Positions 51,856 through 53,943 of a stretch of DNA of 64,000 nucleotides are shown piece after piece. The first letter of the stretch is position 1, and each line of letters opens with the position of its first letter. Both the position numbers and the translations under genes were made by a program. The DNA lies in contig SIJG01000013.1 in NCBI GenBank assembly GCA_023374025.1, positions 836,846-900,845 of the forward strand. The letters run 5' to 3'. This DNA comes from Heterodera schachtii (taxonomy: Eukaryota; Nematoda; Chromadorea; Rhabditida; Heteroderidae). Under the pieces are notes generated by a model, which was not told where the DNA came from, ran no database searches, and saw only the letters and a program-made list of their open reading frames with translations.

Positions 51856-53943
51856 CGAACGAATTCAACACCCTTTCAATTTGGCTATCGTGCAAACCTT
51901 CGTCAAGACGCTCACCGGGAAGACCATCACCCTTGAGGTCGAGGCGAGCGACACCATCGAGAACGTGAAAGCGAAGATCCAGGACAAGGAGGACATCCCG
52001 CCGGACCAGCAGCGCCTCATCTTCGCTGGTGCATCCGCTTCATATGCCTAACAATCAGTTTTAACAAATCCCTTGTTTTCAGGGAAGCAGCTCGAGGACG
52101 GACGCACCTTGGCCGACTACAACATCCAGAAGGAGTCCACTCTTCATCTCGTCCTGCGCCTTCGTGGAGGGATGCAGATCTTCGTCAAGACGCTCACCGG
52201 GAAGACCATCACCCTTGAGGTCGAGGCGAGTGACACCATCGAGAACGTGAAAGCGAAGATCCAGGACAAGGAGGGCATCCCGCCGGACCAGCAGCGCCTC
52301 ATCTTCGCTGGTACTTCAACTTTTGATCTGCCGCAACAATCATTTTTAAACAAATCCCTTCATTTCAGGAAAACAGCTCGAGGACGGACGCAGCTTGGCC
52401 GACTACAACATCCAGAAGGAATCGACGCTTCACCTCGTCTTGCGTCTTCGTGGAGGGATGCAGATCTTCGTCAAAACTCTCACCGGGAAGACCATCACCC
52501 TTGAAGTCGAGGCGAGTGACACCATCGAGAACGTGAAAGCGAAGGTCCAGGACAAGGAGCGCATCCCGCCGGACCAGCAGCGCCTCATCTTCGCTGGTAC
52601 TTCAACTTTTGATCTGCCGCAACAATCATTTTTAAACAAATCCCTTCATTTCAGGAAAACAGCTCGAGGACGGACGCACCTTGGCCGACTACAACATCCA
52701 GAAGGAATCGACGCTTCACCTCCGACCGCCGCGCCTGACCCGCGGCCAACTGGACGCGATCATCACGAAGGTCAACCGCTCGCCTCCTCATCGCTTCACG
52801 GATGAGGTAGAGTTTTTTCTGTTTGCTTTTTGATCAAACAATTAATTTTCCCTTCCCCCTTTTTCCAACAGATCAGTGACGATGAAATCCGCCAGCTCTG
52901 CAAAGCGGCCACGGACGTCTTCCGAATGCAGCCGACGCTCGTCAGGATTCAGCCGCCGGTGGTCGTCGTGGGCGACATCCATGGACAATTCACGGACCTG
53001 CAGAGGATCTTCAACACGCACGGCAACCCTCCAGCGCAGCAGTACGTCTTCCTGGGCGACTACGTCGACCGAGGCCCCCAGTCACTGGAAACCATTGTTC
53101 TTCTCTTCTGCTACAAGGTGTGGTTTTGTGAATCCAACGCAGACAAATATTAATTCCCCTAAACCAATTGCAGGTCAAATACCCAGCGAACTTCATGCTG
53201 CTGCGCGGGAACCACGAGTGCTCCAACATCAACAAAGCGTAAGTGAAAAAATTGTGTTTTTTTTTTTGATTAATCATTCCCCCCCCCCTTTCAGTTATGG
53301 CTTCTCCGAGGAGATCGACCGCCGTTACCCGCGACCAGGCGCTCGTCGACTCTTCGACCTCTTCAATCAAGTCTTCGCCTGGATGCCATTCGTCGGACTG
53401 GTCGGCGAGAGGATCCTCTGTAAGTTTTGGGGGAGGGCAATTTTTGGGGTTCAATAACTGTTTTCCAACTGATTTTCAGGCATGCACGGCGGCCTCTCCG
53501 ACCAGATCAACAGCCTGGAGCAGCTCAGCCACCTGAATCGTCCGCAAACCGACCCGCCGCTTCGGACGCTGGAGATCGATCTTTTGTGGGCGGACCCGTC
53601 GACGCGCATCACAGGCGTGGCCCCGAACCGCCGCAGAGGAGCCGGCGTCATCTTTGGCGCGGACGTGGTGGAGAGCGTGCGCAACCTGCTCGGCATCGAC
53701 TACATCGTTCGAGCGCATCAAGTGAGTTTTTTTTTTTTTTTGGCTTTTCATTTCCCTTGCCTTCAATAATTTTCCCCTTCCCTTCTTTTTCAGCTCGTCA
53801 TGGACGGCGTGGAATACTTCGCGGACCGCCACCTGATCACCTTGTTCTCGGCCCCCCGCTACACCGGCAAGAACAACACGGGCGCCACGCTGCTGATCGC
53901 GCCGGACCTGAGCCACACAATCACGCGCTTCCCGCCGGCCTGA
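51856..53943 (+). CDS. Polyubiquitin-PP1 phosphatase fusion (three ubiquitin units plus PPP domain)
   Basis: Exons: 51856-52028, 52083-52310, 52369-52596, 52655-52806, 52872-53117, 53174-53238, 53295-53419, 53480-53721, 53794-53943 (TGA). Introns 1-3 all split the G47 codon (F-A-G|K-Q-L). Unit 1 begins V-Q-T-F-V-K-T (not M-Q-I-F-V-K-T) and has G35D; unit 2 is near-canonical; unit 3 has I30V and G35R. K48 and K63 are present in all. Units 1 and 2 end L-R-L-R-G-G; unit 3 ends S-T-L-H-L (L69), followed directly by [11 protein letters not shown]. The roughly 303-residue PPP domain has G-D-I-H-G-Q, G-D-Y-V-D-R-G, L-L-R-G-N-H-E, M-H-G-G-L, R-A-H-Q and S-A-P-R-Y: all metal and phosphate ligands of a Ser/Thr phosphatase. 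PP1's C-Y-C-G cysteine is Thr here (R-Y-T-G). The frame is continuous from ubiquitin through the phosphatase. AATAAA lies 230 bases past the stop. The first exon with the initiator is not located. Confidence 0.92.

Follow-up and report, generated by a model that had tools for sequence, protein, structure and literature searches.

The gene considered here lies on the plus strand of the window – the whole 64,000-nucleotide stretch of Heterodera schachtii DNA that was analysed – at positions 51857–53943, and joins ubiquitin to a protein phosphatase. Nine exons, assembled by script, give one open frame that runs through three ubiquitin units, the short stretch RPPRLTRGQ and a PPP-family phosphatase domain, and in this scripted splice all eight introns read GT..AG. 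Exon 1 (51856–52028; its left edge is predicted from an acceptor-like TTTTAG ending at 51855, with 51857 taken for the sake of the frame) holds the start of ubiquitin unit 1, which begins at 51890. Exon 2 (52083–52310) carries the end of unit 1 and the start of unit 2, with an AUG at 52172, and exon 3 (52369–52596) the end of unit 2 and the start of unit 3, with M1 at 52458. Exon 4 (152 bases; 52655–52806) takes unit 3 to its last residue, L69, at 52722, continues with RPPRLTRGQ and enters the phosphatase with LDAII from 52750. The phosphatase then occupies exon 5 (52872–53117; motifs GDIHGQ and GDYVDRG), exon 6 (53174–53238; RGNHE), exon 7 (53295–53419), exon 8 (53480–53721; HGGL and RAHQ) and exon 9 (53794–53943), where its C-terminus is followed by a TGA stop at 53941–53943. 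The segments 52083–52368 and 52369–52654 are tandem copies, identical at 272 of 286 positions, and their 58-base introns are identical letter for letter. As the junction lies inside exon 4, splicing could not part ubiquitin from phosphatase without losing the phosphatase N-terminus.

Upstream of exon 1 lies a non-coding polyubiquitin leader (51429–51855), placed directly behind a phosphatase-type upstream region (51000–51428) in which a motif scan finds a TATA-like TATAAAA at 51387 on the plus strand. Downstream, an AATAAA at 54172–54177 – the only AATAAA or ATTAAA on the plus strand within 51300–54300 – is also present behind the unfused phosphatase genes L027 and L028. The upstream region is shared with a divergent neighbour on the minus strand (50805–51290), whose reading frame in the window looks, by eye, disturbed relative to the one beside L027; the same neighbour accompanies L027 and L028, and part of it also occurs ~2 kb away from L023, a polyubiquitin gene. 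Elsewhere in the window, at 32159–33925 and 44013–45907, one strand carries long open frames that overlap in several phases, possibly repetitive coding sequence; two plus-strand frames tested there gave no Pfam match.

That ubiquitin units and a complete PPP domain share one frame over nine exons had been proposed in a first-pass annotation of this DNA, and the scripted splice, Pfam, matches to solved structures in the PDB and the catalytic motifs all agree on it, so that we hold the gene structure described above with high confidence. On the 448-residue reading that starts with unit 2, Pfam reports ubiquitin at 4.8e-61 (two stretches) and Metallophos (PF00149) at 5.2e-39. The PPP metal- and phosphate-binding motifs GDIHGQ, GDYVDRG, RGNHE, HGGL and RAHQ are all present. 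Among solved structures, the top chain is a Ser/Thr phosphatase by name only (7.1e-81), followed by FAP15 and by named PP1 chains from 1.2e-78; in bits, the best chain reaches 275, named PP1 chains up to 267.6, PP2A ~210 and PP5 ~167. Judged by its motifs and nearest solved chains, the phosphatase is a PPP-family, PP1-like enzyme. It has many relatives: across the searched genome (178,491,932 bases in 356 contigs), the phosphatase query found 145 matches, mostly single exons, on many contigs. Identical scores for some adjacent pairs, for instance two matches on contig C16 and another two on C63, suggest recent duplication.

The ubiquitin units are less uniform than those of an ordinary polyubiquitin gene. 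Unit 1 has GTG (V) in place of ATG – CTATC-GTG-CAAACC in the window, CTATC-ATG-CAAATC in the parent gene L022 – together with I3T and G35D, which makes its translation doubtful. A sequencing error is unlikely, since an annotated H. schachtii protein with the same architecture (P0126, introduced below) likewise reads I-V-Q-T-F with D35. M1 is missing from unit 1 in all three multi-unit fused genes (the window gene, P0123 and P0126). When the spliced sequence is read from 51857, the earliest AUG is that of M1 of unit 2 (52172), the start of the 448-residue protein; further upstream, the window has ATGs at 51442, 51627, 51641, 51656 and 51816. Units 1 and 2 end in an intact RLRGG, at the unit 1/2 and unit 2/3 boundaries, as every unit of a polyubiquitin does, whereas unit 3 stops at ...STLHL (L69), without V-L-R-L-R-G-G (residues 70–76). 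Where cleavable extensions of the S27a, L40 or UBCEP type have LRLRGG at the junction, this gene has L69-RPPRLTRGQ. Unit 3 keeps K6, K11, K27, K29, K33, K48 and K63, as well as L8, I44 and H68, with V70 of the hydrophobic patch gone; an N-terminal ubiquitin with chain-accepting lysines and no cleavage tail is, as far as sequence goes, what a ubiquitin-fusion-degradation (UFD) substrate looks like. The earlier reading of unit 3 as truncated at L69 is thus borne out, and its retention on the phosphatase is to be expected. The accompanying suggestion that units 1 and 2 are both released as free ubiquitin stands in part: one free ubiquitin is a likely product, but unit 1, having no ATG and lying before the first AUG, would probably not be made.

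The parents of the gene, and the places at which they were joined, can be read from DNA alignments. The upstream region (51000–51428) is 91.5% identical to the DNA directly upstream of the unfused phosphatase L027 and 88.9% to that of L028, and a weaker match (82%) lies at a distance of ~2 kb from L023. From 51428 to 52722 the window matches the polyubiquitin genes L022 and L023 (~81% in the leader, with one gap, and ~90% in coding sequence), and from 52733 on it again matches unfused phosphatases. The alignments break sharply, at the end of the promoter after AATTCACT (against L027) and at the junction after ...CACCTC (L69), where a stretch of ~11 bases (52723–52733) has no clear match in either parent and phosphatase homology returns at about GCCTG. 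L027 and L028 have a start of their own, MEDYCFDATAAAAAEQ...GDGLSSGFLDAII, their alignment to the window gene begins at about codon 32, and they share with it the exon layout, the upstream region and the 3' end. Unfused paralogues match on both sides, so that a polyubiquitin segment – leader to L69, introns included – has taken the place of the phosphatase leader and its first ~31 codons. On these alignments the fused gene is a chimera, with polyubiquitin genomic DNA behind the phosphatase's own upstream region; the introns within the polyubiquitin segment argue against an origin from processed mRNA, and the retained upstream region with its TATA box points to a transcription start at the phosphatase promoter. 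A possible source for the junction peptide was considered in L033, an unfused phosphatase on contig C26 (~3283–3440) with the N-terminus MSSYLRKIVEFFRGPARPPRPTRAGLPSGFLDAII: its GPARPPRPTRAGLPSGFLDAII resembles RPPRLTRGQ as a peptide, with weak DNA similarity and no support from the DNA alignment, and it is kept as a lead only.

The junction is not unique to the window. A genome search with exon 4 gave 24 matches, two of which cross the junction: the window itself and a copy on contig C100 (L021, 2300–3580, minus strand), which repeats bases 1–147 of the exon at 96% identity with the same junction. The C100 copy has two ubiquitin–phosphatase junctions in tandem, the second being RLRGG-TSLSSGFVDAII (RLRGG-TSLSSGF), and a search with this second junction found 12 matches, of which the C100 copy alone spans it. 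The copy is decayed: it has lost the middle of the phosphatase, and its exon 4 closes with a frameshift.

Open relatives are found among annotated proteins. A homologue search scored on the ubiquitin side had polyubiquitins at the top of its best 120 matches and was uninformative on fusions. When the best 120 of 7534 matches of a further protein homologue search (E <= 0.001) were checked for PF00240 together with PF00149, three had both: two H. trifolii proteins, P0121 and P0123, and one H. schachtii protein, P0126, annotated as niasHT_017464, niasHT_032205 and niasHS_007896. We infer that these belong to the assemblies of PMC11817004, the available text of which describes another H. schachtii assembly and one of H. 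trifolii; the prefix 'niasHS' does not appear in its main text. The catalytic motifs are present in all four open fused genes (window, P0121, P0123 and P0126), from two species. P0123 has G35R and the L69 junction stretch as in unit 3 of the window, and unit 1 of P0126 has V1, T3 and D35, as does unit 1 of the window. P0121 and P0126 have a different junction, LRLQGG-AGQ(Q)PSSF, with R74Q. Both this QGG-AGQ junction and the RLRGG-TSLSSGF junction of C100 keep GG, and so may be cleavable. The window was also considered as the niasHS_007896 locus itself (seven gene numbers from a BAR–PPP gene; 3.02 Mb contig), an identification that finds no support in the position of the BAR matches in this genome, which lie on C6 (G000:C6:2742814-2743617) and C21 (C21:857295-858104), not on C13, the contig from which the window is taken (836846–900845). 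Proteins that combine a BAR domain with a PP1-like phosphatase do occur in H. schachtii and H. trifolii (P0140, P0143 and P0146).

The recurrence of the junction in effect rules out an assembly join between a ubiquitin gene and a phosphatase gene: although both families are repeated and prone to misjoins, the same junction stands on C100, at 96% over 147 bp, and a near-identical one in P0123 of H. trifolii, so that an artefact is hardly credible.

The relationships of the fused genes differ along their length. Over phosphatase residues 41–294, the window is identical to the fused P0121 at 248 of 254 positions, the best value among the 17 rows of a comparison that left out L029–L034 and further unfused paralogues of this genome, and to P0122 and P0124, the closest unfused ones, at 224 of 254. 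Residues 1–40, by contrast, are identical to the unfused P0122 at 40 of 40 positions, unlike the fused relatives. In the phosphatase tree, the unfused L027 groups with the H. schachtii P0122, both on branches of zero length. Among the rows compared, the nearest relative is a fused gene for three parts: P0126 for unit 1, P0123 for unit 3 and the junction, and P0121 for phosphatase residues 41–294. That the nearest relatives of these parts lie in other fused genes suggests that the copies recombine, and that the L69 junction is probably older than the split between H. schachtii and H. trifolii or has been exchanged between the two species. The fused family is unstable, since a search of this genome with the P0126 junction (QGG-AGQQPSSF) did not recover it: there were 24 matches, and the only ones to cross a junction, the window and two C100 pieces, do so at 67–73% identity and with other junction types.

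The statement in the first-pass annotation that no such natural gene is known holds for print, as far as our searches reached, while the annotated relatives niasHT_017464, niasHT_032205 and niasHS_007896 exist unremarked. Full-text literature searches turned up no gene fusing ubiquitin to a PPP phosphatase among the matches listed, as judged by titles and the openings of abstracts. In the available main text of PMC11817004, 'ubiquitin' appears twice and 'phosphatase' never; in that of PMC9582021, 'ubiquitin' does not appear.

Structure prediction with AlphaFold2 used P0123, which shares the truncation, in place of the window protein. With an alignment of 48 rows, of which three contained ubiquitin, the model lacked the final strand of the truncated unit (mean pLDDT 86.4, pTM 0.72); with 30 rows, 12 of them polyubiquitins, a strand formed at E151–155, corresponding to ubiquitin residues 66–70 (mean 87.5, pTM 0.70). 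In this second model, the truncated unit has a pLDDT of ~77–89 from residue 91 on, five residues separate the strand from the first phosphatase helix (H161–173), and the phosphatase, divided into 30 blocks of ten residues, reaches at least 88 in 24 of them. The truncated unit can thus plausibly fold, with an outcome that depends on the alignment supplied, and the pTM values of 0.72 and 0.70 mean that the models do not fix the packing of the two domains.

Taken together, these observations lead us to favour a chimera in which a ubiquitin-like domain is retained on the phosphatase as a docking module or a degradation signal, a reading that we regard as about evenly poised between true and false. 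Its steps would be as follows. The gene would be transcribed from the phosphatase promoter and translated from the AUG of unit 2, unit 1 having lost its ATG; deubiquitinases would cut between units 2 and 3, where RLRGG-M is intact, giving one free ubiquitin and a Ub(1–69)–phosphatase as the likely products. Unit 3, without V70–G76, would not be removable and would stay as an N-terminal ubiquitin-like domain that leads straight into the first phosphatase helix. Ub(1–69) could then dock the enzyme on receptors of ubiquitin or of the proteasome, in the way of the UBL domain of UBLCP1, with a grip that may be weaker than that of ubiquitin given the missing V70 of the hydrophobic patch, or it could act as a UFD signal that keeps the enzyme short-lived. 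We put forward this functional part, docking or degradation signal, with some reserve, as somewhat less than an even prospect.

The most serious rival is a non-functional chimera, produced by ectopic recombination between two multicopy families and still open as it is young or has been patched by gene conversion. In support of it stand the decay of the C100 copy, the phosphatase as a mosaic of paralogues and the difference in junction type between this genome and the annotated P0126, together with the changes in the ubiquitin units. Across the eight units of the ordinary polyubiquitin genes L022, L023 and L024, the 28 pairs show no amino-acid change and 5–33 silent codons, whereas the three fused units carry six amino-acid changes between them (M1V, I3T and G35D in unit 1, T55S in unit 2, I30V and G35R in unit 3); this pile-up of replacements and the lost start of unit 1 also fit relaxed selection. 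The dN/dS of the fused phosphatase is 0.25 against L027 and 0.25 against L028, with 0.04 between L027 and L028 – rough values, being pairwise estimates on a mosaic gene, drawn from the L027 and L028 models only and with the last ten residues cut off – so that it is apparently under constraint, yet looser than in either parent. The pattern fits a weakly constrained new function and likewise a recent loss of function. Against a non-functional gene count the distance of 0.25 from 1, the four open genes in two species with catalytic motifs in all of them (splice sites having been checked in the window alone) and the retention of both the upstream region and the AATAAA signal. We regard a non-functional origin as a real contender, though of well under even probability.

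Ubiquitin could instead be a removable leader that aids expression in the style of the ribosomal fusions, with the phosphatase released. RLRGG is intact between units 1 and 2 and between units 2 and 3, the C100 copy has its RLRGG-TSLSSGF junction and QGG is kept in P0121 and P0126; however, residues 70–76 are missing at the phosphatase junction of the window and of P0123, and P0121 and P0126 have R74Q, which leaves this explanation improbable.

More improbable again is a secreted ubiquitin–phosphatase effector. Cyst nematodes have ubiquitin carboxyl extension protein effectors, and the annotated P0126 has a hydrophobic N-terminus, but P0121 and P0123 lack it. The window's ATG at 51816 reaches a stop after three codons, and the homologous stretch in the parent polyubiquitin gene sits before a splice-acceptor-like site. 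By eye, the window and the annotated fused proteins contain no conserved in-frame signal-peptide candidate, nor do the translated N-termini of unfused phosphatases show a signal peptide. The first-pass annotation had raised a role in host signalling; with no conserved signal peptide seen by eye, and with a phosphatase partner from a family of many unfused members, that suggestion finds no support, and we favour docking and degradation-signal roles over a host-directed one.

If the retained-domain reading is right, its broadest form would be that cyst nematodes have a germline-encoded, uncleavable fusion of near-unchanged ubiquitin to an active phosphatase – a substrate or user of the UFD route, and a UBL born from real ubiquitin, occurring in the genus with two junction types or more – which we advance only tentatively. 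The UFD pathway would thereby gain a natural client, and the case would show how ubiquitin-like domains arise, with parent genes, breakpoints, a decayed sister copy and second-species relatives all readable.

Compared with its own parents, the fused gene resembles the polyubiquitin genes L022, L023 and L024 in its units and in the position of the codon-47 intron, and shares its leader with L022 and L023; those three genes comprise eight units of one protein sequence and end in KN-stop (L022, L023) or KNCIDE-stop (L024), whereas here unit 3 passes into the phosphatase at L69. With the unfused Heterodera PP1-like phosphatases (L027, L028 and niasHS_012546 of H. schachtii) it shares the catalytic domain, their own MEDYCFDATAAAAAEQ...GDGLSSGFLDAII start standing where the fused gene has ubiquitin. 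The BAR-domain–PPP proteins of Heterodera likewise place an N-terminal domain on a PP1-like phosphatase, but that domain is BAR, not ubiquitin. The ubiquitin–ribosomal fusions S27a and L40 keep G-G and are cleaved; like them, the fused gene reads from ubiquitin into an unrelated protein without a change of frame, but it lacks residues 70–76. UBLCP1 is an FCP/SCP-family phosphatase with a diverged UBL, and while both proteins have a UBL on a protein phosphatase, the fused gene puts a near-perfect ubiquitin on a PPP-family enzyme. In the available text of PMC5451543, UBLCP1 is described as a proteasome phosphatase with a ubiquitin-like domain that binds the proteasome subunit Rpn1. A parallel for an uncleavable N-terminal ubiquitin is UBB+1, which the available text of PMC3507821 (2012) calls the only known physiologically relevant UFD substrate: UBB+1 results from the loss of a dinucleotide in mRNA and its tail is short (PMC3507821), whereas the fused gene is a genomic fusion whose partner is an enzyme.
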